Positions 2,663 to 62,287 of a stretch of DNA of 64,000 bases are shown here, piece after piece. Where the stretch lies: the NCBI RefSeq assembly GCF_014211915.1, contig NZ_CP060040.1, forward strand, positions 2,790,001 through 2,854,000. The letters run 5' to 3'. Source of the stretch: Burkholderia cenocepacia (GTDB lineage Bacteria; Pseudomonadota; Gammaproteobacteria; Burkholderiales; Burkholderiaceae). A program made the translations under genes and the position numbers. The notes below the pieces were generated by a model. The model was not told the origin of the DNA. It searched no databases and saw only the letters and a program-made list of their open reading frames with translations. Within the stretch, counting starts at the first letter, position 1, and every line of letters begins with the position of its first letter.

Positions 2663-4367
2663 GGCGGGTTTCCTCGGGCTGGTCGCCGGCGTGTGCGGCG
2701 CGGGTTGCAAGGGTAGCGTCACGATCCGTCGTCGTCCTGACGGTTGCGTCGGCATGCGGCTGCGCCGGCACGCGGCATACGCCGCGCATCAGGTCGACGG
2801 CCTTCTCGGCGATCATGATCGTCGGCGCGTTGGTGTTGCCGCCGATGAGCGTCGGCATCACCGATGCATCGACGATGCGCAGCCCTTGCAGGCCATGCAC
2901 ACGCAGTTGCGGATCGACGACGGCGAGCGCGTCGCGCCCCATCCGGCAGGTGCCGACCGGGTGATAGACGGTGTCGGCGCGCCGTCGCAGCACGTCGCGA
3001 ATCTCGTCGTCGGTCGTCACGTTCGCGGTGAACAGGTCGCGCGTGGTCCAGTCGGCGAGCGCCGGCGCCTCCATCAGGCGACGCGTGATGCGGAAGCCCG
3101 CGACCATGTCGTCGAGATCGCGCGGATCGTCGAAGAACGCGGGATCGATGCGGGGCGCCGCGAGCGGGTCGGCGCCGTTCAGCGTGACCGAGCCGCGGCT
3201 GCGCGGCCGCAACAGGCACACGTGGCACGACAGCCCGTGACCGGCATGCGGCTTGCGCGCATGGTCGTCGACGAGCGCGACGACGAAATGCAGCTGGATG
3301 TCCGGTGCCGCCAGATCGGCACGCGTTTTCAGGAAACCGCCGCCTTCCGCGAAGTTCGACGTCAGCATCCCGCGCCGTTCGCGGCGAAAGCGGGCGAATT
3401 CGCGCAGCATGCGCAGCCCGCCGCGGACGGACACGCCCATCGTGTCGACGCTGCGCGTGCGGTAGCCGAAGATGAAATCCGGATGATCCTGCAGGTTGCG
3501 GCCGACGCCCGGCAGATCGGCCTGTACGGCGATGCCGAACTGCTGGAGTTCGCGGCCCGGGCCGACGCCCGACAGCATCAGCAACTGCGGCGTCTGCAGC
3601 GCGCCGGCCGCGAGCACGACTTCGCGCCGCGCGCGCAGCGTGCGGATTTGACCGTGCTGCCGCACCTCGACGCCGGTCGCGCGCGTGCCGTCGAACAGGA
3701 TGCGCAGCACCTGCGCGTGCGCCTCGACCGTCAGGTTGTCGCGGCGGCCGACGTGCGGCAGCAGGTACGCGCGCGCCGCGCTCCATCGTTCGCCGTGCTT
3801 CTGCGTGACCTGGTAGATCCCGATGCCTTCCTGTTGCGCGCCGTTGAAATCGTCGGTGAGCGGCAGGCCGGCCTGTTGCGCGGCTTCCAGATAGCGCGCA
3901 TGAAACGGGTTGCCGGTGCGCAGGTCGCTGACCCACAGCGGGCCGTCGCGGCCGTGCCAGGCATCGTCGAAGCGCTCGTTGTGCTCGCTCAGGCGGAAGT
4001 ACGGCAGCACGTCGTCGTACGCCCAGCCTTCGGCGCCGAGCGTGGCCCAGCCGTCGTAGTCGACGCGATGACCGCGGATATAGACCATCGCGTTGATCGC
4101 CGACGAACCGCCAAGCGCCCTGCCGCGCGGCTGATAGCCGATGCGCCCGCCGAGCCCCGGCTGCGGCACCGTGTCGAATGCCCAGTTGTTCAGGCGGGTC
4201 GGCATCATCGCGACCGCGCCGGTCGGCACGTTGACGACCGCGCTGTCGCCGCGGCCGCCGGCCTCGAGCACGCAGACGGTCACGGCCGGGTCCTCGGTCA
4301 GCCGGCCCGCGACGACGCAACCGCCCGACCCGCCACCGACCACGATGTAGTCGAAAGTCTTGCTCAT
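2649..4367 (-). CDS. GMC-family oxidoreductase (choline/alcohol dehydrogenase type)
   Basis: A 572-residue flavoprotein. It has the N-terminal FAD motif GGGSGGCVVAG, the GMC signature around GRALGGSSAINAMVYIRG, and the C-terminal active-site segment HPVGTCRMG followed by NTNAPTIMIAEKA. Family enzymes oxidise primary alcohols (choline, polyethylene glycol, alkanols) to aldehydes. The start at 4367 has a strong AAGGAGA site 7 nt upstream. It is the first gene of an operon whose second gene is the monooxygenase-esterase fusion, so a plausible job is oxidation of the alcohol released from the ester (inference). The operon is divergent from an AraC regulator. Confidence 0.9.
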   Translation of the reverse strand: MSKTFDYIVVGGGSGGCVVAGRLTEDPAVTVCVLEAGGRGDSAVVNVPTGAVAMMPTRLNNWAFDTVPQPGLGGRIGYQPRGRALGGSSAINAMVYIRGHRVDYDGWATLGAEGWAYDDVLPYFRLSEHNERFDDAWHGRDGPLWVSDLRTGNPFHARYLEAAQQAGLPLTDDFNGAQQEGIGIYQVTQKHGERWSAARAYLLPHVGRRDNLTVEAHAQVLRILFDGTRATGVEVRQHGQIRTLRARREVVLAAGALQTPQLLMLSGVGPGRELQQFGIAVQADLPGVGRNLQDHPDFIFGYRTRSVDTMGVSVRGGLRMLREFARFRRERRGMLTSNFAEGGGFLKTRADLAAPDIQLHFVVALVDDHARKPHAGHGLSCHVCLLRPRSRGSVTLNGADPLAAPRIDPAFFDDPRDLDDMVAGFRITRRLMEAPALADWTTRDLFTANVTTDDEIRDVLRRRADTVYHPVGTCRMGRDALAVVDPQLRVHGLQGLRIVDASVMPTLIGGNTNAPTIMIAEKAVDLMRGVCRVPAQPHADATVRTTTDRDATLATRAAHAGDQPEETRHAVA

Positions 4368-4602
4368 GGAATCGTCTCCTTGCTTCGGTGATCGGTGGGT
4401 CATGCGACGCGTGTCGGCATGCGGGCGCGGCCGGCGCGCCGGCGGGCGAAGTGGGTGAAGTGGGCGGCGGGATCGGTCGGGCGACTCGGTCGCATGGTGT
4501 CTCCTCCTGGGGGATGGCGTCGTTCGGACGACGACTGGATGACGCCGATGGTGCGGGCCGCATGGGAAAACACCAATGCTGGTTGGGGACAATTGTTTTA
4601 GT

Positions 4603-4615
4603 ATTTGGGCCAAAT
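4603..4615. promoter_or_regulatory. Perfect dyad between GMC operon and AraC regulator
   Basis: ATTTGG-G-CCAAAT forms a perfect 6-1-6 inverted repeat in the most AT-rich part of the 271-bp divergent intergenic region, 24 bp before the AraC-type start. It is a candidate operator or autoregulatory site. The binding protein is inferred only from position. Confidence 0.4.
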
Positions 4616-4638
4616 CGGCGCTTCGAGGGTTTCTCCGC

Positions 4639-5670
4639 ATGAGCTTCTGGGATTTCACCCGGAGTCCGGCCAGCGCCCGGTTGCTGGTCGATTTCGGCGA
4701 CGAACGCGGTGTGCCGCATGCCACGCTGCTGGCCGGCACGGGCCTCGCGAGCGCGCAGCTCGACGACCCGAAAGTCGAGGTGACGGCCGCGCAGGAACTG
4801 CGGCTGACCGGCAACCTGCTGCGTGCGCTCGGCCGGGCACAGGGCCTCGGGTTCGAGGTCGGCCGGCGTTACCACTTCTCCGCGTACGGCGTGTGGGGCT
4901 ACGGGCTGATCGCGAGCGCGACCGGGCGCGATGCGCTCGCGCTCGCGATGCGTTTTTTGCCGCTCACGTATGCGTACACCGTCATCACGTACCGCGAGTC
5001 GGCTGACACTGGCGTGCTCAGCTTCGGCGCGCCGGAACTCGACGCCGACCTGAGCCGGTTCCTCGTCGAGCGCGACATGACGGCCGCGGCCGTGCTGCTG
5101 CACGAAATCGCCAGCGGCGATTTCGCGTTGTCGCGCTTCACGCTGCAGGCCGCGCGTTCGCCGGCGCTCGCGGCGCCGCGTATCGCCGGCATCGAGCCGA
5201 CGTTCTCGGCGCGGGCGAACAGCCTCGCGTTCGACCGTGCGTTCCTCGACCGGCCGTTGCCGCATGCGAATCCGCTGACGGTGTCGATGTGCGAGCAGAT
5301 GTGCGGGCAACTCGTCGAAGCACGGCGTGCGCGCGTGGGCACGTCGGAGATGGTGCGCCAGTACCTGAACGCGACGCCCGGCAGCGCGCCGTTCTCGCTC
5401 GAGGACATGGCGCGCCTGATGAACACGAGCCCGCGCACGCTCAAGCGGCGGTTGCAGGAGGAGGGCACGACGTTTCGCGCGCTGCTCGCGCAGACGCGCG
5501 GGGCGATGGCCGAGACGCTGCTCGGCGATGCGCGGCTGTCGCTCGCGGACGTGGCCGAGCGGCTCGGCTTCAGCGATCTGTCCAGTTTCTCGCAAGCGTT
5601 CAAGCGCTGGTACGGCGTGCCGCCGGGCGCGTATCGCAGCGCGGCGCGGCGAGCAGGCGACCGTCGATGA
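4639..5670 (+). CDS. AraC-family regulator with arabinose-binding-like N-terminal domain (VirS type)
   Basis: A 343-residue regulator. The N-terminal 200 residues fit the variable ligand domain seen in OruR/VirS-type AraC proteins. The C-terminal 100 residues carry two helix-turn-helix units (segment MARLMNTSPRTLKRRLQEEG, then LADVAERLGFSDLSSFSQAFKRWYG). The chosen ATG at 4639 aligns with the family start, and a GAGG lies 10 nt before it; the upstream in-frame ATG at 4576 lies within the promoter region. It is divergent from the GMC/monooxygenase-esterase operon and is its likely activator. Confidence 0.85.
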   Translation: MSFWDFTRSPASARLLVDFGDERGVPHATLLAGTGLASAQLDDPKVEVTAAQELRLTGNLLRALGRAQGLGFEVGRRYHFSAYGVWGYGLIASATGRDALALAMRFLPLTYAYTVITYRESADTGVLSFGAPELDADLSRFLVERDMTAAAVLLHEIASGDFALSRFTLQAARSPALAAPRIAGIEPTFSARANSLAFDRAFLDRPLPHANPLTVSMCEQMCGQLVEARRARVGTSEMVRQYLNATPGSAPFSLEDMARLMNTSPRTLKRRLQEEGTTFRALLAQTRGAMAETLLGDARLSLADVAERLGFSDLSSFSQAFKRWYGVPPGAYRSAARRAGDRR

Positions 5671-5734
5671 ATCGCGGTACGATCGCCCGCTTGCCCGTCC
5701 TGCCTGTCGACATCACACTCACGAGAGACCCCGC

Positions 5735-6244
5735 ATGATCACGATTCGCCCGATGACCGACGACGATTTCGTACGCTTCTGGCCGACCTACCGCGCCATC
5801 GTCGCTGCTCAGGAAACCTATGCATTCGATCCCGAACCGACCCAGGAAGCGGCACGCGCACTGTGGCTCGACGCGCCGCTCTGTACGTGGATCGCCGAAG
5901 AAGACGGCGTGGTGCTCGGCTCGTACTTCCTGAAGGCGAACGCCGCCGGGCCCGGCAAGCATGTGAGCAACTGCGGCTACATGGTGAGCGAGGCCGCGCG
6001 CGGTCGCGGCGTCGCGCGCCTGATGTGCGAGCACTCGCAGCAGGTGGCGCGCGAGCGCGGTTTCCTCGCGATGCAGTTCAATTCGGTGGTCGCGACGAAC
6101 GAGGTCGCGGTCGCGCTGTGGCAGAAGCTGGGATTCGAGATCGTCGGCCGGCTGCCGCGCGCATACCGTCACGCGCGGCTCGGCTTTGTCGACTGCTTCG
6201 TGATGTTCAAGTGGCTCGGCGACGCGGCGGCCGCCGAAGCCTGA
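5735..6244 (+). CDS. GNAT-family N-acetyltransferase
   Basis: A 169-residue single GNAT domain. It begins with the typical beta-1 segment MITIRPMTDDDF and has the acetyl-CoA-binding motif A region ending in EAARGRGVARLM, followed by NEVAVALWQKLGFEIVGRLP (motif B). The substrate cannot be predicted. It starts 64 nt after the AraC-type gene on the same strand, so it may be read through from it. It converges on the M29-like gene. Confidence 0.85.
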   Translation: MITIRPMTDDDFVRFWPTYRAIVAAQETYAFDPEPTQEAARALWLDAPLCTWIAEEDGVVLGSYFLKANAAGPGKHVSNCGYMVSEAARGRGVARLMCEHSQQVARERGFLAMQFNSVVATNEVAVALWQKLGFEIVGRLPRAYRHARLGFVDCFVMFKWLGDAAAAEA

Positions 6245-6261
6245 GCAACCTGCTCGCTGCG

Positions 6262-7215
6262 TCAGACGGCGAACGCGCCGTCGAACACGATCCGCTCGTC
6301 GAGCGCGAGCGTGCCGCGCGCGAAGATCAGGTCGAGATGGTGGCTGCCGTTTTCGCCGCCGCCGAGGCCGAGGTGCAGGCCCGGATGGCGTTCCTCGAAC
6401 CCTGCGTTGCGGCCGTACAGGCCGCGGATGCCGAGGTTCGTGCCGATGCCGAATTCCTCGATCCGCCGGTGATTCGCATGCCGGTCGAGATAGGTCGAGA
6501 AATCGCGCCGGAAGCCCGCATCGTCGGTGTCGAAATCGACGATCGTGCTGTGCTCGACATGCAGCGTCGCGAGCCGCTCGGCCACCTTGTACTTGATCGC
6601 GAACGGCACGGTGCCGAGAAAGGTGCCGCTGAACACGACCGAGCCGTTGAGGTCGGTCACGTGCGTCGCGATCTCGCCGGGCACGACGTCGAGGTTGCCC
6701 ATGCCGTCCACGCTCGTCCATTTCTGGTCCGGCGCGAGCGAGCCCGTCAGCGTGTTGCCGGCTTCGTCGATGAAGCGGATCTGCGATGCGCGTGCGGCCG
6801 CGTCGATCAGCCGGCCATTGCGCGCGGCGATGTCGTCGAGCGATTCGGCGAACGCCTCGTCGAGGTGCGGGCCGTAATCCTTGAATAAAACCGATTTGCT
6901 CCAGTGCTCGACGATCGCGGGGCGGATCGCGGCGAGAAAGGGCGGCCCGCTCGGCGACGGCGTCGGCAGGCACGACGAGTCGTACAGCAGCACGAACAGG
7001 TCGGCGGCGTCGAGCGCGGCGGCGATGTCGGCGGGCGGGGTGCTTTCGAGGCAGAGGGTGGTCGCGTCGAGCGAATCGGGCAGGGCGGCAAAGGCGCGCA
7101 ACGCGATGTCGCGGTTGCGGGTGTCATGGCCGACCAGCAGTTTTCCCGATTCGCCGCGGGCCAGCTTGTCGCGCAACGCGGGGTGAAAGCCGAGCGCGCG
7201 GTGCAGGTTCAGCAT
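6262..7215 (-). CDS. M29-aminopeptidase-like protein, partner of the small peptide gene
   Basis: A 317-residue protein with the layout of M29 (aminopeptidase T/AmpS) peptidases but shorter than the usual 370-410. Metal-ligand-type positions are visible: Glu181 in PGEIATH, Glu253/254 in IEEFGIGTN, His281 in GLHLGLGGG, and the HLD pair at 293-295. The N-terminal domain is reduced and divergent. A GGAG lies 7 nt before the ATG. It follows a 40-codon peptide gene by 58 nt with a perfect palindrome between them, a layout used when a precursor is made in excess over its processing or binding protein. The role is inferred: processing or binding the peptide. A stand-alone aminopeptidase is the alternative. 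Confidence 0.65.
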   Translation of the reverse strand: MLNLHRALGFHPALRDKLARGESGKLLVGHDTRNRDIALRAFAALPDSLDATTLCLESTPPADIAAALDAADLFVLLYDSSCLPTPSPSGPPFLAAIRPAIVEHWSKSVLFKDYGPHLDEAFAESLDDIAARNGRLIDAAARASQIRFIDEAGNTLTGSLAPDQKWTSVDGMGNLDVVPGEIATHVTDLNGSVVFSGTFLGTVPFAIKYKVAERLATLHVEHSTIVDFDTDDAGFRRDFSTYLDRHANHRRIEEFGIGTNLGIRGLYGRNAGFEERHPGLHLGLGGGENGSHHLDLIFARGTLALDERIVFDGAFAV

Positions 7216-37508: not shown

Positions 37509-38591
37509 TCAGGCCTCCCGGCGCATCACGCGCACGGCGTCGCTGTGCCAGTCGATGCCGACCGGCGCACCTTCCGCGAGCGGCTCCGTGCCTTCGTTCT
37601 GGCAGCACACGAGCACTTCGCCGAGCGCGCTGTCGACGCGGTACAGCCACTGGCTACCGAGGAAGAAGCGGCTCGTGACGGTCGCGGCGAAACGGCCGGC
37701 GTCGGGCGCGCACAGCCGGAGCTTCTCGGGGCGGATGCAGACCGACACCGCATCGCCCACGTGCATGTCGCGTTCGCGTGGCGGCAGGTGCGCCGTGCGG
37801 CCGGTCTCGGCGAGATCGTGCCCGAGATCGATGCGGATCGCGTCGCCGTCGTGCGCGACGATCGTGCCGGGCAGCAGGTTCGCCTTGCCGATGAACTGCG
37901 ACACGAAATGATTCTCCGGGCGTTCGTACGCGCGGTACGGCGTATCGGTCTGCGTGATGCGGCCGGCTTCCATCACGACCACGCGGTCGCTGATCGACAG
38001 CGCTTCCGACTGATCGTGCGTGACCATGATCGTCGTCGTGCCGATCTTGCGCTGGATTGCGCGCAACTCGAACTGCATGTCCTCGCGCAGCTTCGCGTCG
38101 AGGTTCGACATCGGCTCGTCGAGCAGCAGCACAGGCGGCTCGATCACCACCGCGCGCGCGATCGCCACGCGCTGCCGTTGGCCGCCCGACAGCTCGCGCG
38201 GAAAGCGGTGCGCGAGCGCATCGAGCCGCACGAGCGCCAGCGCCGCGCGGATGCGCTCCGCGCGCTCGGCCTTGTCGACGCCGCGCATGTCGAGGCCGAA
38301 GCCGACGTTCTCCGCGACGCTCATGTGCGGAAACAGCGCATAGCTCTGGAACACGATGCCGAGCCCGCGGCGGTTCGGCTTCAGGTGCGTGATGTCCTGC
38401 CCGTCGAGCGCGATGCGGCCGCGCGTGACGTCGACGAAGCCGGCGATCATCTGCAGCGTGGTCGTCTTGCCGCAGCCGGACGGCCCGAGCAGCGACACGA
38501 ATTCGCCTTGTTCGACCGACAGGTTGACGTCCGCGACGGCGGTGAGCTCGCCGAAGGTTTTCGTCAGATCCGTAAGCGTGAGAAACGACAT
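37509..38591 (-). CDS. ABC transporter ATP-binding protein (PotA-like)
   Basis: A 360-residue ATPase with Walker A GPSGCGKTT, signature LSGGQRQRVAIARA, Walker B LLLDEPMSNLD, the switch His in MVTHDQSEAL and a C-terminal TOBE domain from about 290. It is the first gene of the seven-gene importer and oxidase operon, divergent from an IclR regulator. Confidence 0.92.
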   Translation of the reverse strand: MSFLTLTDLTKTFGELTAVADVNLSVEQGEFVSLLGPSGCGKTTTLQMIAGFVDVTRGRIALDGQDITHLKPNRRGLGIVFQSYALFPHMSVAENVGFGLDMRGVDKAERAERIRAALALVRLDALAHRFPRELSGGQRQRVAIARAVVIEPPVLLLDEPMSNLDAKLREDMQFELRAIQRKIGTTTIMVTHDQSEALSISDRVVVMEAGRITQTDTPYRAYERPENHFVSQFIGKANLLPGTIVAHDGDAIRIDLGHDLAETGRTAHLPPRERDMHVGDAVSVCIRPEKLRLCAPDAGRFAATVTSRFFLGSQWLYRVDSALGEVLVCCQNEGTEPLAEGAPVGIDWHSDAVRVMRREA

Positions 38592-51149: not shown

Positions 51150-51935
51150 ATGGTGCAAGCATCTCCGCGCCCGGCGTTGAGCGGTCCGACGCTCGTCCGG
51201 CTGCTCGCGCGCCTGGCCGATGCCGACGTCGCGGAATCCCGGCAGACGCTGTCCGACCGGCTGAGCCAGTGGCTCGGCTGGACCGACGCGATCACACTGT
51301 CGTCCGCGTTGAATGCGAGCCCGCCGGGTGTCGCGGCCGGCGTGCGCGGCTACGACGCCGAGCGCGACTGCGCGCGCGTGCGCCACGACCTCGCGCAGGC
51401 GATCACGGCCACCCAGCGGCCGCGCGCGCGGCGCCGGCCCGGCGACCTGCCGCCGTCGGCCGCCGATACGGCCGATTTCGCGGATTTCCGCCAGCGGTAT
51501 CTGACCCTCCAGCAGGACATGGAAACGGCGATCGGCCAGTTGCGCGGCCGCCTGCGGGTCGCGCTCGCCGCGCGCTCGTCCGGGATGGCGCGGCTCGCGA
51601 CGCTCGACACGATCATGGAGCGCGTGCTCGGCGCGCGCGAGCGCAGCCTGCTGTCGGCCATACCCGCGCTGCTCGGCACGCGCTTCGCGCGGCTGCGCGA
51701 AGCGGAGCGGCAGGCGCTGGCCGAAGCCGAAGCCGCGGCCGCCGCTGCGCCCGACGCCGACGCATCGGCTCCGGCCGATGAAGGCGCGGCGGCCGACACC
51801 CCGACCGTCGCGGCGATCGTGCCCGGCGCATGGCTCGATACGTTTCGCGACGAGATGCACAGCATCCTGCTTGCCGAACTCGAAGTCCGGTTTCAAACGG
51901 TAGACGGGCTGCTCGCAGCCCTTCGCACCTGCTAA
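51150..51935 (+). CDS. DUF3348 protein, first gene of a motor-like operon
   Basis: A 261-residue soluble, largely helical protein with an N-terminal segment LVRLLARLADADVAESRQTL and a central helical region (FRQRYLTLQQDMETAIGQLR). An Ala-rich acidic linker at 188-225 leads to a conserved C-terminal helix with FRDEMHSILLAELEVRFQTV. It matches my memory of DUF3348, found mainly in Burkholderiaceae and without known function. It lies 10 nt before the MotA/ExbB-like gene, so a role as a cytoplasmic partner of that complex is inferred. Confidence 0.75.
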   Translation: MVQASPRPALSGPTLVRLLARLADADVAESRQTLSDRLSQWLGWTDAITLSSALNASPPGVAAGVRGYDAERDCARVRHDLAQAITATQRPRARRRPGDLPPSAADTADFADFRQRYLTLQQDMETAIGQLRGRLRVALAARSSGMARLATLDTIMERVLGARERSLLSAIPALLGTRFARLREAERQALAEAEAAAAAAPDADASAPADEGAAADTPTVAAIVPGAWLDTFRDEMHSILLAELEVRFQTVDGLLAALRTC

Positions 51936-51945
51936 TCAACACGCT

Positions 51946-54900
51946 ATGTCCAGAATTCGCCTTGATCTCGTTGTCTTCGTCGCCGGTCTGCTCGCAGTGG
52001 GCTGGATCGGTGCCGGCTATGTCGCGTCGAACCCGCTGGCGGCGGCCGTTACGCTGCTGATCGGCGCGTGCTACGTCGCCGGCGCATGGGAGCTGCTGCG
52101 CTACCGGCAGGCGACCGCCACGCTGTCGCACGCGATCGCCGGCCTGGGCGCGCCGCCCGCGACGCTCGACCCGTGGCTCGACACGCTGCATCCGGACCTG
52201 CGCGGCGCGGTGCGCGCCCGGGTCGAAGGCGCGCGCGTCGCGCTGCCGGGCCCGGCGCTCACGCCTTACCTCGTCGGCCTGCTGGTGCTGCTCGGCATGC
52301 TCGGCACGCTGCTCGGGATGGTCGTCACGCTGAAGGGCACGGGCGCCGCGCTCGAGAGCGCGACCGATCTCGATGCGATCCGCGCGTCGCTGATCGCGCC
52401 GGTGAAGGGGCTCGGGTTCGCGTTCGGCACGTCGATTGCCGGTGTGGCGACGTCCGCGATGCTCGGGCTGCTGTCCGCGCTCGTGCGCCGCGAGCGGATC
52501 GACGCGGCCCAGCAGCTCGACGCGAAGATCGCGACGACGCTGCGCGTGCATTCGTCCGCGCACCAGCGCGACGAATCGTTCCGGCTGCTGCAGCGCCAGG
52601 CCGACGTGATGCCGGCGCTGGTCGACCGGTTGCAGACGATGATGACGACGCTCGAGGCGCGCAGCGTCGCGTTGCACGATCGTCAGCTCGAAAGCCAGCA
52701 GGCATTTTTCGACCGGACCGAGCGGGCGTATGCGGGCCTGGCGTCGAACGTCGGCGACGCGCTGAAGGAAAGCGCCGCCGAAAGCGCGCGCGTGGCCGGC
52801 GCCGCGCTGCAGCCGGTCGTCGCCGCGACGATGACGGGGCTCGCGCAGGAGATGGCCGCGCTGCGCGATACCGTGACGGGCGCGGTGCAGCGTCAGCTCG
52901 ACGGGCTGACGGACGGCTTCGAGAAGACCACCGGCAACGTGACGGCTGTCTGGAACCACGCGCTCGACGAACAGCGCCGCGCGGGCGACGCGGTCGCGCA
53001 GCAGTTGCAGACGACGCTTGGCCAGTTCACCGACACGTTCGCGCAACGTTCGTCGGATCTGCTCGACGGCGTCGCGACGCGCCTCGAGTCGACCGAAGGC
53101 CGCCTGTCGGACGCATGGCGCGATGCGCTCGCGCGTCAGGAGCAGGTCGGCGAGACGCTGGCCGGCCAGCATGCGCGCGCGCTGGGCGAGGCCGCCGCGA
53201 CGTTCGAACGCCATTCGGCCGCGACGCTCGCCGCGATGCACGAGTCGCACGCGGGTTTGCAGACGCAACTGGCGGCGCGCGACGAAGAACGTCTCGCTGC
53301 ATGGAACGACTCGCTGGCCGCGATGGCCGCGAAGCTCGGCGACGAATGGCAGCGTGCCGGCGCGCATAGCGCGGGCCGTCAGCAGGAAATCTGCGACGCG
53401 CTTGCGCAAACGACGCGTGACCTCGCTGCACAGGCGTCGACGTTTGAACAACGCTCGACCGATCTGTTGTCGACGATCCGCGAGTCGCACACCGGTCTGC
53501 AATCGCAACTGGCGGCGCGCGACGAAGAACGCCTGTCCGCATGGAACGACTCGCTGGCCGCGATGGCCGCGAAGCTCGGCGAAGAATGGCAGCGCGCGGG
53601 CGTGCACAGCGCCGGCCGTCAGCAGGAAATCTGCGACGCGCTTGCGCAAACGACGCGCGACCTCGTCGCACAGGCATCGACGTTCGAACAACGCTCGAAC
53701 GATCTGTTGTCGACGATTCGCGATTCGCACACGGGCCTCCAATCGCAACTCGCTGCACGCGACGAAGAACGGTTGTCGGCGTGGAACGAGTCGCTGGCCG
53801 CGATGGCCACGAAGCTCGGCGAAGAATGGCAGCGCGCGGGCGTGCACAGCGCAGGCCGTCAGCAGGAAATCTGCGACGCGCTTGCGCAAACGACGCGCGA
53901 CCTCGTCGCACAGGCGTCGACGTTCGAACAACGCTCGAACGATCTGTTGTCGACGATTCGCGATTCGCACACGGGCCTCCAATCGCAACTCGCTGCACGC
54001 GACGAAGAACGGTTGTCGGCGTGGAACGAGTCGCTGGCTGCGCTGGCCACGAAGCTCGGCGAAGAATGGCAGCGCGCGGGCGTGCACAGCGCCGGCCGTC
54101 AGCAGGAAATCTGCGACGCACTCGCGCAAACGACGCGCGACCTCGCCGCACAGGCGTCGACGTTCGAACAACGCTCGAACGATCTGCTGTCGACGATTCG
54201 CGAGTCGCACACCGGTCTGCAATCGCAACTGGCTGCACGCGACGAAGCCCGCCTCGCCGCCTGGAACGATTCGCTCGCCGCGATGGCCGCCGCGCTGCGC
54301 GACGAATGGGCGCAGACGAGCGCGCAGGCCGCGGCGCGCCAGCAGGACATCTGCGACACGCTGACCCGCACCGCGAACGACATCACCGCGCAGGCGCAGG
54401 TGCACGCGAGCGACACGATCAACGAAATCGCGCGTCTCGTGCAGGCCGCATCGGAAGCGCCGAAGGCCGCGGCCGACGTCGTCGCCGAGCTGCGCCAGCG
54501 CCTGTCCGACAGCATGGTGCGCGACACCGCGACGCTGGAGGAACGCAGCCGCCTGCTCGCGACGCTGGAGACGCTGCTCGGCGCGGTCAACCACGCGTCG
54601 ACCGAACAGCGCGCCGCGATCGACGCGCTCGTCAGCACGTCGGCCGATCTGCTCGACCGCGTCGGCGCGCGCTTCAACGACACCGTCGATGCCGAAACGC
54701 GCAAGCTCGATTCGGTGGCCGCGCAGGTCGCGGCCGGCGCCGTCGAAGTGGCGAGCCTCGGCGATGCGTTCGGGATGGCCGTGCAGGTGTTCGGCGAATC
54801 GAACGACAAGCTGCTGACGCATCTGCAGCGCATCGAGGCCGCGCTTGAGAAATCGCTCGCGCGCAGCGACGAACAGCTCGAGTACTACGTCGCGCAGGCG

Positions 54901-54993
54901 CGCGAGGTGATCGACCTGAGCGTGATGTCGCAGAAGCAGATCGTCGAGGATTTGCAACAGCTCGCCGGCCGGCGGGCGAGCGTCGGAGCGTAA
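51946..54993 (+). CDS. MotA/ExbB/ZorA-like membrane protein with long repeat tail (DUF802)
   Basis: A 1015-residue protein. Hydrophobic segments lie at about 8-27, 31-50, 107-128 and 153-178. The last two (LVGLLVLLGMLGTLLGMVVT and GLGFAFGTSIAGVATSAMLG) resemble the pore helices of MotA/TolQ/ExbB/ZorA. From about 200 to 990 is a helical cytoplasmic tail. It includes four near-identical 80-residue repeats (446-765), a more divergent copy after them, and a faint one before. The next gene encodes the MotB-like partner with 3 nt between stop and start. Inferred role: stator-type proton channel driving or signalling through a very long tail. DUF802 has no known function. Confidence 0.8.
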   Translation: MSRIRLDLVVFVAGLLAVGWIGAGYVASNPLAAAVTLLIGACYVAGAWELLRYRQATATLSHAIAGLGAPPATLDPWLDTLHPDLRGAVRARVEGARVALPGPALTPYLVGLLVLLGMLGTLLGMVVTLKGTGAALESATDLDAIRASLIAPVKGLGFAFGTSIAGVATSAMLGLLSALVRRERIDAAQQLDAKIATTLRVHSSAHQRDESFRLLQRQADVMPALVDRLQTMMTTLEARSVALHDRQLESQQAFFDRTERAYAGLASNVGDALKESAAESARVAGAALQPVVAATMTGLAQEMAALRDTVTGAVQRQLDGLTDGFEKTTGNVTAVWNHALDEQRRAGDAVAQQLQTTLGQFTDTFAQRSSDLLDGVATRLESTEGRLSDAWRDALARQEQVGETLAGQHARALGEAAATFERHSAATLAAMHESHAGLQTQLAARDEERLAAWNDSLAAMAAKLGDEWQRAGAHSAGRQQEICDALAQTTRDLAAQASTFEQRSTDLLSTIRESHTGLQSQLAARDEERLSAWNDSLAAMAAKLGEEWQRAGVHSAGRQQEICDALAQTTRDLVAQASTFEQRSNDLLSTIRDSHTGLQSQLAARDEERLSAWNESLAAMATKLGEEWQRAGVHSAGRQQEICDALAQTTRDLVAQASTFEQRSNDLLSTIRDSHTGLQSQLAARDEERLSAWNESLAALATKLGEEWQRAGVHSAGRQQEICDALAQTTRDLAAQASTFEQRSNDLLSTIRESHTGLQSQLAARDEARLAAWNDSLAAMAAALRDEWAQTSAQAAARQQDICDTLTRTANDITAQAQVHASDTINEIARLVQAASEAPKAAADVVAELRQRLSDSMVRDTATLEERSRLLATLETLLGAVNHASTEQRAAIDALVSTSADLLDRVGARFNDTVDAETRKLDSVAAQVAAGAVEVASLGDAFGMAVQVFGESNDKLLTHLQRIEAALEKSLARSDEQLEYYVAQAREVIDLSVMSQKQIVEDLQQLAGRRASVGA
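53281..54480 (+). repeat. 240-bp coding tandem repeats in the DUF802 gene
   Basis: Units start at 53281, 53521, 53761, 54001 and 54241, with an exact 240-bp period (80 codons). Each begins with GACGAAG and contains CAGGAAATCTGCGACGC. Units 2-4 differ at only a few percent of positions, and the fifth diverges after about 60 bp. High DNA-level identity indicates recent duplication or ongoing gene conversion. Confidence 0.9.
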
Positions 54994-54996
54994 CGC

Positions 54997-55641
54997 ATGC
55001 ACGACGAAATCGACGGCGGCGCGCCATCGGCGCCGGTGTGGCCCGCGTTCGCCGACCTGATGTCGGTGCTGCTCGGCGCGTTCGTGCTGATCCTCGTCGG
55101 CGTGATCGGCATGCAGCTCCAGCTCACGTCGAAACTCGAGGAAGCGGTGCGCGCGCGCCAGCTTGAAGCGCAGCAGCGCAAGTCGCTCGAACAGGCGCTC
55201 GCCGGGCCGCTCGCGGCCGGCCGCGTGACGCTCGTGAACGGGCGCATCGGCATCAGCGGCAACGTGCTGTTCGCGCTGAACTCCGACCAGTTGCAGCCCG
55301 CGGGCCGTGACCTGCTGAAGACGCTGGCCGGCCCGCTCGCCACGTACTTGAAGACCCGCGACGAGATCCTGATGATCAGCGGCTTCGCGGACGACCAGCA
55401 GGTGCACGCCGGCAACCGCCTGTTCGCGGACAACTGGGAACTGTCGGCCAAACGCGCGCTGACCGTGACGCGCGCGATGATCGATGCCGGCGTGCCGGCG
55501 TCGTCGGTGTTCGCGGCCGCGTTCGGTTCCGAACAGCCGGTCAGCTCGAATGCGGACGATGAAGGCCGCGCGAAGAACCGCCGCGTGGAAATCGCGCCAG
55601 TGCCGCGCAAGTCGGCGTCGAACGGAGGAAAGGCAAAGTGA
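54997..55641 (+). CDS. MotB/ZorB-like OmpA-family protein
   Basis: A 214-residue protein with one N-terminal membrane helix, WPAFADLMSVLLGAFVLILV. Its Asp20 sits where MotB has the proton-carrying Asp (compare the MotB motif YADFMTAMMAFF). A short helical linker leads to an OmpA-like peptidoglycan-binding domain (about 80-205) with FALNSDQLQPAGRDLLKTL, ISGFADDQQ, and the Asp/Arg-bearing NADDEGRAKNRRVEI. The layout equals the B-subunit of stator complexes (MotB, ZorB). It starts 3 nt after the DUF802 gene and overlaps the next gene as GTGA. Confidence 0.85.
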   Translation: MHDEIDGGAPSAPVWPAFADLMSVLLGAFVLILVGVIGMQLQLTSKLEEAVRARQLEAQQRKSLEQALAGPLAAGRVTLVNGRIGISGNVLFALNSDQLQPAGRDLLKTLAGPLATYLKTRDEILMISGFADDQQVHAGNRLFADNWELSAKRALTVTRAMIDAGVPASSVFAAAFGSEQPVSSNADDEGRAKNRRVEIAPVPRKSASNGGKAK

Positions 55642-56264
55642 CGGTCGACGCGACGCAGGTTCGCGCGATGCTCGACGCATGGCGCGAGCAGGGCGCCGAT
55701 CGACTCGACCCGGTAGGTTTTCATCGGATCGATGCGCTCGAACGGCGCGCGGCTGTGCTCGACGGCGCGGCACGCGCGTTGCTCGATGCGCGGCTGGCGA
55801 CGCTGATCGACGGCTTTGCGAAGCGCGTCGCGCGCGCCGACGACGATGCCGAAGTCACGCGCGAGACGGCGCAAGCCACGACGAGCGTGCCCGCGCGCGG
55901 CGCGCTGGCCGCGCTCGTCGAAGGCCTCGCGCGTGATGCGCAGGCTGACCGGCGCGGGCTCGATCCCGAACTGGTCGACTACTTCCGCACGATGTGGTCG
56001 AAAGTCCGCACGGAACAGCAATACCGCCAGTCGCTCGACCAGGTGCCGCGCAACGCGGGGCCGCTCAACTCGAACAGCCTCGTGCACCGCTCGCTCGCGA
56101 CGATGCGCGAGCTGTCGCCGGAATACCTGCAGCAGTTCCTGTCGTACGTCGACGCGCTCGCATGGCTCGAGGATCTCGCCGGCGGCGCGCAGCCCGAGAA
56201 GGAAGCACCGCGTGCGAAGGCGGCGAAGCCGGCGAGAAAGACGACGCGCGCGAAGGCGCGATAA
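55638..56264 (+). CDS. DUF2894 protein, last gene of the motor-like operon
   Basis: A 208-residue soluble protein, helical, with conserved segments YFRTMWSKVRTEQQYRQSLD and NSLVHRSLATMRELSPEYLQ, and a Lys/Ala/Arg-rich C-terminal tail (170-208). The GTG start at 55638 overlaps the upstream stop as GTGA, with GGAGG before it. DUF2894 has no known function. Fixed association with the MotA/MotB-like pair suggests an accessory or effector role. Confidence 0.75.
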   Translation: MTVDATQVRAMLDAWREQGADRLDPVGFHRIDALERRAAVLDGAARALLDARLATLIDGFAKRVARADDDAEVTRETAQATTSVPARGALAALVEGLARDAQADRRGLDPELVDYFRTMWSKVRTEQQYRQSLDQVPRNAGPLNSNSLVHRSLATMRELSPEYLQQFLSYVDALAWLEDLAGGAQPEKEAPRAKAAKPARKTTRAKAR

Positions 56265-59601: not shown

Positions 59602-61923
59602 TTACTTCTTGGTGCCGGCGCCCAGCAGACCGCCGAGCAGGTTGGTCACCGGCGACAGCAGGTTGCCGGTGCCGCCCGCGGCGCCGCCGCCCGTGCTGCC
59701 GGTCAGGCCGGTCACCACGGAGCCGCTGCCGCCCGGCGTCGTCACGGTGCCTGCTGCGCCGCCGGGGCTGACCGTGCCGGTGGCGCCGGCCGAGCCGGCC
59801 GGCGTGCCCAGCGCACCCGTGAGCGTGCCGACCGGGCCGCTGGTCAGCACCCCGCCGAGCGTGCCGGACAGGTTGCCGCCCGGCGTCGTGACGGTGCCGG
59901 TGAGGCTCGCGCCGAGCGGCGTCAGCGCGTTGACGAGATTGGTGACCGGCGCCAGCAGGCCGCCGAGGCCTGCGCCACCCGTACCGCTGGTGCCGCCGGT
60001 CCCGCTCGTTCCGCCCGTGCCGCTGGTGCCGCTCGAACCGATGCCGCCGAGTGCGCCCGTCACCGTCCCGAGCAGGCCGGTGATCGGTGCGAGCGGGCCG
60101 CCGCTGCTGGTGCCGCTGGTGCCGCCCGAACCGCTCGAGCTGCCGCCGCCGAGGCCGCCCGTCAACGTGCCGAGCAGGCCCGTGATCGGCGCGAGCGGAT
60201 TGCTGCCGCCCGTACCGCTGCTGGAGCTGCCCGCGTTGTTGTCGTGGACGAGGCCGCCCGTCGACGTCACCGTGTTGCCGAGCTGCGTCACGACGCCGCC
60301 GAGGCCCGCGCCGACCGGGTTGTCGGTCGCGCCGCCGACCTTCGTGCCCGCGAGCCCGAGGCCATTGCCGAGCGTGCTCAGCAGGCCGTTGAGCGGGGTG
60401 CCGAGCAGCGTCACGCCGCCGAGCGTCTGCGTGGCGCCCGGCGTCGTGACGCCGCCGGTCAGCGTGTTCGTGATCGGGTTGATCACCTTGCCGAGCTGCG
60501 TTTCGAGCTGCTGGACCGGCGAGCTGTTCAGTGCTGTGTTCAGCGCCGATGCGGTCGAGTTGACCGCGGTGCCGACCGTGTTGACGAGGCTGCCGACCAG
60601 GGTCGTCGCGGGCGCGAGCGGCGACAGCGGACCGGTGCCGAGGCTCGTCACCGCATTGCCGAGGTTGTTGACCGCGCCGCCGGCGCCGGTCAGCAGGCCG
60701 GTGGTCGACGTGATCGTCGGCCCGAGCGGATTCGCCGACACGCCGATCGAACCCAGGCCGGCCGCGATGCCGTTGCCGAGCGATTGCACGCCGTTGCCGA
60801 GGCTGCCGACCGCGTTGCCGATGCTGGTGGCCGTCGTCGGGTTCGTGCCGGGAATCTGCACGCCGCCGATCTGACCGCCGCCGTTTACGACCGTCGTGCC
60901 GAGCGCCGTCACGAGGTTGCCGGACTTCTGGAGGACATTGCCGAGCGGGGTAACGCCGGTGCCGGAGGTGCCGGAAGTGCCGGAGGTGCCCGAGGTACCG
61001 GAAGTGCCCGAGGTGCCCGAGGTGCCCGAGGTGCCCGAAGTGCCCGAAGTGCCCGAGGTACCGGAGGTGCCCGAGGTGCCGGAAGTGCCCGAGGTGCCGG
61101 AAGTGCCCGAGGTACCGGAGGTGCCCGAGGTGCCGGAAGTGCCGGAAGTGCCCGAGGTGCCCGAGGTGCCGGAAGTGCCCGAGGTACCGGAAGTGCCCGA
61201 GGTACCGGAAGTGCCCGACGTGCCGGAAGTGCCCGAAGTACCGGAAGTACCCGAGGTGCCGGAAGTGCCCGAAGTACCGGAAGTGCCCGAGGTGCCGGAA
61301 GTGCCCGAGGTGCCGGAAGTGCCCGAGGTGCCGGAAGTGCCCGAGGTGCCGGAAGTGCCCGAAGTACCGGAGGTGCCCGAGGTACCGGAAGTGCCCGAGG
61401 TGCCGGAAGTGCCCGAAGTACCGGAAGTACCCGAGGTGCCGGAAGTGCCCGAAGTACCGGAAGTGCCCGACGTGCCGGAAGTGCCCGAAGTACCCGACGT
61501 GCCGGAAGTGCCCGAAGTACCGGAGGTGCCCGAGGTGCCGGAAGTGCCCGAAGTACCGGAAGTGCCCGAAGTACCGGAAGTGCCCGAGGTGCCGGAAGTG
61601 CCCGAAGTACCGGAAGTGCCCGAAGTACCGGAGGTGCCCGAAGTACCGGAGGTGCCCGAAGTACCGGAGGTGCCCGACGTGCCGGAAGTACCCGACGTAC
61701 CGGAAGTCCCCGACGACCCCGAAGTCCCCGAACTACCGCCGCCCGACGTCCCCGACGAACCGCCGCCCGACGTACCCGACGTCCCCGAAGTGCCGCTCGT
61801 CCCGGACGTGCTCGGCTTGATCGTCGGCGGGGTCGTCGGTCCATCGACCGAGCCGCAGCCGTACAGCGCGAGCAGTGACGAGACGGCCATCGTTACCGTC
61901 GTCTTCTTGAAGAGATTCTGCAT
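59602..61923 (-). CDS. Collagen-like (Gly-Thr-Ser)n surface lipoprotein
   Basis: A 773-residue protein. The N-terminal lipoprotein-type signal is [20 protein letters not shown] then YGCGSVDG, with Cys as the probable lipidated residue. Residues of about 55-325 are Gly-Thr-Ser triplets with near-perfect regularity (roughly 80 copies), a Gly-X-Y collagen-like pattern without Pro. The rest (about 450 residues) is rich in Gly, Leu, Thr and Asn with recurring [23 protein letters not shown] blocks. Proteins of this kind occur in Burkholderia and are proposed to be trimeric adhesins. GAGG precedes the start. Confidence 0.82.
60955..61740 (-). repeat. 9-bp (Gly-Thr-Ser) coding tandem repeat array
   Basis: More than 80 near-identical 9-bp units with a visible 18-bp higher-order pattern, since TCC and TCG serine codons alternate in much of the array. 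Sequence variation is confined to synonymous third positions. Such an array is prone to slippage and copy-number change, always in frame. Confidence 0.9.
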
Positions 61924-62287
61924 GTTGGCCTCGACATTGGAAGTGTGTCCAGGCCTTCTCTGCAAATTCCGCGCCATGACAGGTTTCGCGAAACGGTGTC
62001 GCGATTTGTTGCGGAAATCGGGAATATCGATGCGATTTAAACGGAGGAATGGCGGTTTCGCGCGACAGGCGCGCGCGGTGCGCGAGCGTCGCGGCTGCGA
62101 TGTTCCCGTAAGGCGCCGTAACGCGCGACGGGATGTTACGTAGCGTTCGACCGCCCGTTACGCGACCGGCCGTGAACCGAGGCCCGCATCTTTGACGAAA
62201 CGCGCCGTCCCGCAGAACATGGCGCGACATCCCCCGGCCGCCGGCGGCGCGGCAGCGGCCACGACTTCCAACTACCAGGACACCGAC
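61924..62287. promoter_or_regulatory. Divergent region, collagen-like gene / CMD gene
   Basis: About 364 bp with no gene supported. It contains GGTTTCGCGAAACC-like symmetry near 61980-61995 and repeated GTTACG/CGTAAC blocks between 62108 and 62165, of unknown meaning. It must hold both promoters. Confidence 0.35.

Follow-up and report, generated by a model that had tools for sequence, protein, structure and literature searches.

Zorya systems comprise three subtypes, and the published structural work concerns types I and II, which are described as complexes of five ZorA and two ZorB subunits (5:2) that depend both on the tail of ZorA and on the peptidoglycan domain of ZorB (PMC11890865). The third subtype, Zorya type III, was named by PADLOC in 2021 with 6,401 reported loci, and the type III operon of Stenotrophomonas nitritireducens, introduced into Escherichia coli BL21-AI, was reported to reduce the plating of at least one phage (PMC8565338). 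A type III system has also been reported in Burkholderia cenocepacia K56-2 from a padloc prediction (PMC12584637). We analyzed a stretch of 64,000 nucleotides (nt) from the B. cenocepacia contig NZ_CP060040.1 (hereafter the window, whose coordinates are used throughout) that carries, at positions 51150-56264 of the + strand, a four-gene operon combining a motor-like protein pair with two proteins of the DUF3348 and DUF2894 families. Each of the four products matches one of the type III Zorya profile sets of PADLOC-DB (ZorA3, ZorB3, DUF3348 and DUF2894) and, since this type is defined in print, the operon belongs to a described system. The system type, known since 2021, is thus not new; the parts worth following are the behavior of the ZorA3 tail and the presence of the operon throughout the genus.

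The four co-directional genes are spaced by 10 nt, then by 3 nt, and the last two overlap by GTGA, exactly as set out in a preliminary description of this DNA. The first gene (51150..51935, +) encodes a DUF3348 protein of 261 residues (PF11828, 7e-85; PADLOC ZorG3, 2.2e-95), which is single-copy in the window's own genome. It is followed by ZorA3 (51946..54993, +), a membrane motor subunit of 1015 residues with a long tail (PADLOC ZorA3, PDLC00649, E-value printed as 0, 1574 bits), on which the Pfam family DUF802 matches in four stretches (5e-26). The third gene (54997..55641, +) encodes ZorB3, of 214 residues (PADLOC ZorB3, PDLC00651, 1.4e-113), and the last one (55638..56264, +), starting with GTG, a DUF2894 protein of 208 residues (PF11445, 1e-57; PADLOC ZorF3, 4.7e-81). 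The names of the two partners are swapped between sources: DUF3348 is ZorF and DUF2894 is ZorG in the 2021 paper (PMC8565338), while the PADLOC-DB profile library has the opposite. ZorA3 displays hydrophobic stretches at residues ~1-28, 26-51, 98-132 and 158-180, followed by a tail of nearly 800 residues. ZorB3 has a single hydrophobic helix, holding the Asp (D20) of the motif FADLMSVLL, and an OmpA-type peptidoglycan-binding domain (Pfam OmpA, 2.5e-18; MotB domain 3khn, 6.8e-17); its NCBIfam match, PRK09040 (4.3e-116), is a model titled 'hypothetical protein'. A stator-like A/B pair and a likeness to long-tailed ZorA, both proposed in the preliminary description, are borne out.

The operon tested in 2021 could be retrieved from S. 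nitritireducens DSM 12575 (NZ_LDJG01000021.1, our locus L319). It is like that of the window in its four families, their order, their strand and the near contact of the genes. Identity between the two operons reaches 70% over ZorA residues 1-230 and 69% in ZorB, against 42% in DUF3348 and 38% in DUF2894, so that the motor is well kept and its two cytoplasmic partners diverge faster. The lengths of ZorA differ: 798 residues in S. nitritireducens, compared to 1015 in the window, where the tail includes a tandem array of 80-residue units. With this homologous operon reported to protect E. coli (PMC8565338), the link to defence suggested in the preliminary description holds.

The other subtypes share the ZorA/ZorB pair but not its partners. 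Type I (ZorABCD; structure 8VVN) is like type III in this pair, the long ZorA tail and the peptidoglycan domain, and its 696-residue ZorA chain has nearly the common type III length of 698 residues; however, neither ZorC nor ZorD, which define type I, was matched by any of the four proteins (E≤1) or by 30 further candidate genes in the window (E≤0.001). Type II (ZorABE; 8VVI), whose tail and peptidoglycan domain are reported to be needed for defence, has a shorter tail (residues 100-378 in the S. kujiense protein) and ZorE in place of the DUF pair (PMC11890865); no match to ZorE was found in the four proteins or in the same 30 candidate genes. At the profile level, ZorA3 is only distantly similar to type I ZorA (NCBIfam ZorA_1, 0.0015; 8VVN, 0.056; PADLOC type I profile, 3.4e-14 in four stretches), and the PADLOC ZorA3 profiles are the only ones to match it strongly. 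The stators MotAB, ExbBD and TolQR resemble the window's pair in their pore-type helices, the Asp of the B subunit and the MotB-type OmpA domain, but differ from it in that ZorA3 has a giant tail, two cytoplasmic partners and no match to Pfam MotA_ExbB at E≤1, which leaves it outside the MotA/ExbB/TolQ family. The profile similarity expected for its pore helices was thus clear to ZorA3 and weak to MotA/ExbB, and the MotA/ExbB resemblance is one of layout and of PADLOC description only.

We then compared type III loci from three sets: 40 of the 64 genus genomes bearing DUF3348, with 39 further loci chosen from the listed matches; 60 more chosen in the same way; and the best 80 of at least 564 DUF3348 relatives found by scanning GTDB genomes with a DUF3348 alignment. 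In 212 of 219 loci (74/79, 59/60 and 79/80, respectively), all four genes lie on one strand with their order unchanged; DUF3348 and DUF2894, earlier proposed as partners of the motor pair, are constant ones. The seven exceptions consist of three weak DUF3348 matches without operon (L155, L160, L161), three loci cut by contig ends (L114, L156, L349) and one ZorA without its motor half (L211). In this last locus (G277, ~3785-7032), DUF3348, ZorB and DUF2894 are present and the ZorA tail is kept, with about the first 370 residues, the motor end, missing through either decay or an assembly fault. A further record (L283), titled Bacillus subtilis SK7B5, bears a Zorya III operon that closely resembles Xanthomonadales copies; this assembly is probably mislabelled or contaminated.

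Within the motor, conservation is high. Loss of the ZorB Asp in homologues, which would have spoken against a stator, was not observed: Asp20 is kept in all 133 homologues having a residue at this column (134 aligned rows, one of them gapped). In the ZorA3 pore region (about residues 98-180; 52237..52485, +), T121, T128, T162, S163 and S170 are invariant in 135/135 aligned sequences. In a weak alignment (E 0.056) with hand-counted positions, T121 and T162-S163 fall opposite the GT and TS motifs of the type I ZorA 8VVN, at its residues T158 and T197-S198.

Carriers among beta- and gamma-proteobacteria have a common ZorA3 length of about 698 residues: lengths of 697-702 residues occur in 29 of the 133 complete proteins from the first two sets, and lengths of 695-698 in 28 of the 79 from the third. 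Longer proteins mostly carry tandem units. The 'giant' tail of the window is thus a common 698-residue ZorA lengthened by such units, namely 4.4 copies of a 240-bp (80-residue) unit (53234..54290, +; 92% matches and 0% indels with the program TRF), visible in the protein as a lag-80 self-match over residues ~418-790. In the 29 unrepeated ZorA3, mean conservation by 30-column blocks is 0.45-0.62 over columns 241-510, rises to 0.72, 0.78, 0.79, 0.60, 0.74 and 0.87 over columns 511-690, and is 0.52 in columns 691-718. ZorA3 is therefore organized as a highly conserved motor, a poorly conserved middle spacer and a mostly well-conserved tip, the latter formed by about the last 190 residues (54421..54975, +, as transferred to the window by length). 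Pfam names assigned to the tail (Synaptobrevin, HXXSHH) were judged spurious coiled-coil matches, and public records naming some ZorA3 (P0025, P0037) 'chemotaxis protein' or 'synaptobrevin family protein' were probably misled by this coiled coil.

Among near relatives, tail length varies by whole units. The window's nearest named homologues belong to B. cenocepacia and its complex, and the best 120 of 7362 homologues (representatives of 90% clusters, within 0.55-1.75 times the query length) are all 695+80n residues long, with 1, 2, 13, 87 and 17 proteins of 695, 775, 855, 935 and 1015 residues, respectively. The length of 1015 residues is that of the two most populated clusters (606 and 56 members) and of two records filed as complete, one from B. 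cenocepacia and one from B. multivorans. Among proteins labelled B. cenocepacia, forms of 695, 855, 935 and 1015 residues occur, and contigs longer than 2.8 Mb with this label hold both 935 (P0020) and 1015 (P0011, P0076). In draft genomes, collapse of the array during assembly may explain some of the shorter alleles. Units found in other lineages measure 29, 33, 51, 62, 69, 73, 87, 98, 131 and 149 residues. Our literature search, conducted mostly on listings, found no published account of ZorA tail repeats. Type I ZorA is not a clean constant-length control, as many of the 47 matches listed in the phylum have ~630-800 residues and many others 900-1716; frames of ~1100-1716 residues matching the type I ZorA profile outside the window's class (e.g. 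in families f83, f87, f100, f103 and f106) look like further giant-tailed, stator-like proteins.

The copies of the array do not evolve independently. In 24 genus genes of 1015 residues, copies 2-4 of the same gene share 92.6-93.9% DNA identity, compared to 82.1-82.4% for same-position copies of different genomes, although the motor region and distal tail reach 93.5% between genomes; copy 1 has a lower within-gene identity (83.2-84.3%). Since identity within genes exceeds identity between genomes, copies are being homogenized by exchange, a process that should change copy number as well. Yet, among the 31 genus loci with shared flanks, 24 encode 1015 residues, six encode 855 or 935, and one is cut. 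This predominance of 1015 hints at selection on length, shared ancestry being also possible.

The lengths of strong units moreover fit the geometry of a helix. The 11 units repeated at 70% identity or more correspond to whole helix turns at 3.636 residues per turn, with a mean cosine of 0.956 that none of 20,000 random sets reached (largest 0.847). These units were hand-picked from listings, several are known from one protein each and not all are independent events; a mechanical recount over 215 proteins, which retrieved the same 11 plus 58 (twice 29), gave the same mean cosine (0.956, 0/20,000), and 0.963 once multiples were removed (0/20,000, largest random 0.921). Unit lists including weaker repeats behaved alike, although we limit the claim to units at 0.70 or more because helix periodicity itself could favor weaker ones. 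Applied to the 78 distinct total lengths of ZorA3, the phase test was not significant (best R 0.22, against 0.29 for the 95% null). For the 13 unrepeated tails of the first set, averaging the hydrophobic spectra gives a maximum at 3.666 residues (11/3), where the power is 8.8 compared to 0.7 at the heptad value of 3.5, as expected for a near-straight helical rod. This hydrophobic period is distinct from the best quantum of the units, 3.636, and the unit test run at 3.666 falls to 0.42; tails that combine blocks of 11 and of 7 residues could account for the difference. The plain reading is that the tail has to stay an in-register helical rod. In-phase units show that the rod must stay a rod and not that its length matters, as any functional coiled coil would be expected to preserve phase. 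Growth of the rod by repeat steps in helix phase looks new.

In the window's genus, the operon has a core-like distribution. DUF3348 occurs in 64 of 65 genomes, in exactly one copy each, and the genome lacking it is 82% complete and contains DUF2894; the latter family is present in 63/65 genomes, and one or the other in 65/65. Near-full-length type I ZorA (E below 1e-28), Shedu SduA and type I restriction HSDR_N, taken as controls, occur in 3, 5 and 28 (27 over cut-off) of these genomes; for type I ZorA, weak matches in most genomes (E 1e-3 to 6e-7), several of them to ZorA3 itself, were left uncounted. In wider samples, DUF3348 is found in 207/299 genomes and 11/25 genera of the family, 13/250 genomes of the order (12 over cut-off) and 20/398 genomes of the phylum (19 over cut-off), and three of the weakest matches in the last two samples (G461, G331 and G658) have no operon. 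Of the 92 family genomes without DUF3348, 20 are listed, 17 of which are under 3 Mb. DUF2894 (PF11445) also scored over cut-off in the control genome of Corynebacterium glutamicum, far outside the observed range. A genus-wide presence of Zorya III in Burkholderia was not reported in the published sources retrieved by our literature search, as far as their accessible text goes, and the core-like presence described here looks new.

At least three of seven flanking genes are common to 31 of 40 genus loci, and the nearest neighbors of the operon are metabolic, transport or regulatory genes by Pfam. Across genomes, operon and rpoB identities are correlated (Spearman 0.86 for 39 genus genomes, and 0.80 for all 50, a figure including two genomes outside the genus, G089 and G305, whose rpoB was taken in a wrong frame). 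The 30 syntenic genomes in the tree form one clade (branch support SH-aLRT 100, quick tree) and the approximately unbiased test does not reject monophyly of all genus copies (p-AU 0.345). Nine of the 40 genus copies sit elsewhere and are more divergent, and may have been inherited vertically or gained through transfer or replacement. Against the 3, 5 and 28 genomes of the controls, presence in 64/65 does not support a mobile defence island, and no defence neighbor was seen among the 30 other candidate genes of the window, where PADLOC produced two matches, an ABC-transporter ATPase and an oxidoreductase (E 0.0005), neither being a defence protein by Pfam. The former is a mad3 match at 37509-38591 (1.2e-31), rejected on this basis. 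Elsewhere in the window (59602-61977, -), a 791-residue frame holds a very long (TSG)n tract and an inner start that resembles a lipoprotein signal (LLALYGC), with no PADLOC match. A promoter scan of the operon found none, and terminator-like sites number 6 for 3.6 expected.

The operon is, very probably, best explained as a Zorya type III system built around a stator-type motor whose tail would serve as a drive shaft. By analogy with types I and II, five ZorA3 would surround two ZorB3 in an ion-driven membrane motor, and the OmpA domain of ZorB3 may grip peptidoglycan upon envelope disturbance such as phage entry. Ions flowing past Asp20 of ZorB and a ring of ZorA Thr/Ser residues would then turn the ZorA ring together with its helical tail. 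The tail, whose membrane end and most of whose tip are conserved, would act as the shaft, with a middle spacer free to lengthen or shorten by whole units provided that helix faces stay in phase. Its tip might finally present or activate the DUF3348 and DUF2894 proteins, which would occupy the place of ZorC/ZorD in type I or ZorE in type II. Profiles, gene order, conserved Asp and Thr/Ser residues, tail anatomy, repeat behavior and core-like distribution are direct results of our computations; for type III, we infer the 5:2 stoichiometry, rotation, ion type, docking at the tip and the roles of DUF3348 and DUF2894. A bolder extension, which we consider unlikely, would make Zorya III a fixed core-genome rotary machine with a recombination-tuned shaft, growing by units of 29 to 149 residues in whole turns only so that the tip angle is kept, and with length alleles that, within one species, give the machine a different site or target of action.

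A number of observations weigh against a defence motor of this kind. In a CRISPR interference screen of B. cenocepacia K56-2 with phage Bcep176, no predicted defence gene was reported to alter fitness; the screen involved one phage, 3 of its 34 genes had too few guides and its authors give other reasons, while a transcriptional change was reported for one or two genes at the start of the Zorya operon (PMC12584637). Neither partner exhibits a visible effector activity: DUF3348 found nothing among PDB profiles, the best match of DUF2894 was a short secretion protein (E 0.034) and no useful relative, and the two are unrelated to each other (probability 0.2 in profile comparison). A search of 50,697 phage records and a viral contig scan yielded no DUF3348, and the 26 plasmid records containing it, out of 72,556, are all replicons of 0.59-3.5 Mb, of which 19 are predicted non-mobilizable and 7 mobilizable. 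Core-like fixation is itself unusual for a defence system. Together with the single copy per genome, the shared flanks and the lack of any but a general ABC ATPase and a weak oxidoreductase as PADLOC neighbors, the silent screen and the mobile-element results would suit a housekeeping envelope machine of Burkholderiaceae and their Xanthomonadales relatives, phage protection being a by-product or secondary. We regard this as rather improbable, given that the homologous operon defends E. coli (PMC8565338) and that types I and II, built on the same A/B architecture, are defence systems (PMC11890865). Many relatives, besides, manage without DUF3348, as seen in the order and family samples, and the L211 ZorA has no motor half. 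Core status is also compatible with defence, type III Zorya being shown among the core or near-core defence systems of R. solanacearum (PMC13064858).

A distinct alternative concerns the tail only, whose repeats could arise neutrally, by ordinary slippage or by unequal exchange, in a coiled coil that tolerates them, and be irrelevant to the motor, with some short alleles being assembly collapses. This is a serious contender, if somewhat short of an even chance. Copies do evolve in concert, arrays begin in the less conserved mid-tail in the genus and in most other strong cases, and total lengths carry no significant phase signal. Near-identical 240-bp repeats are, in addition, difficult for short reads. 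On the other hand, strong units fall on whole turns, all 120 nearest homologues listed obey 695+80n, contigs of more than 2.8 Mb labelled B. cenocepacia include both 935 and 1015, and 1015 residues are encoded by 24 of 31 loci in spite of homogenizing copies. As for the initial view of an undescribed motor operon, it could appeal to the lack of NCBIfam models for DUF3348 or DUF2894 (none at E≤1) and to Pfam labels of unknown function for both; it is refuted by the naming and test of 2021 (PMC8565338) and by the PADLOC-DB profiles, and we give it practically no credit.

The drive-shaft motor remains our preferred explanation, and its interest lies in a type whose mechanism appears little studied, structural work covering types I and II (PMC11890865). 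How a signal passes from a wall-gripping motor through the ZorA tail to cytoplasmic partners is a question common to all Zorya. In type III, nature supplies alleles whose shafts differ by whole units while motor and tip are much alike, apparently even among members of a single species, and the role of tail length and helix phase is therefore directly approachable. If length tuning were true, the reach of the tip would shift by ~12 nm per 80-residue unit, given a continuous helix, and length alleles within one species would constitute a contingency locus of innate immunity or envelope maintenance. Finally, the near-universal presence of the operon in Burkholderia species raises the question of whether certain systems now catalogued as defensive belong to the core genome and serve other functions.

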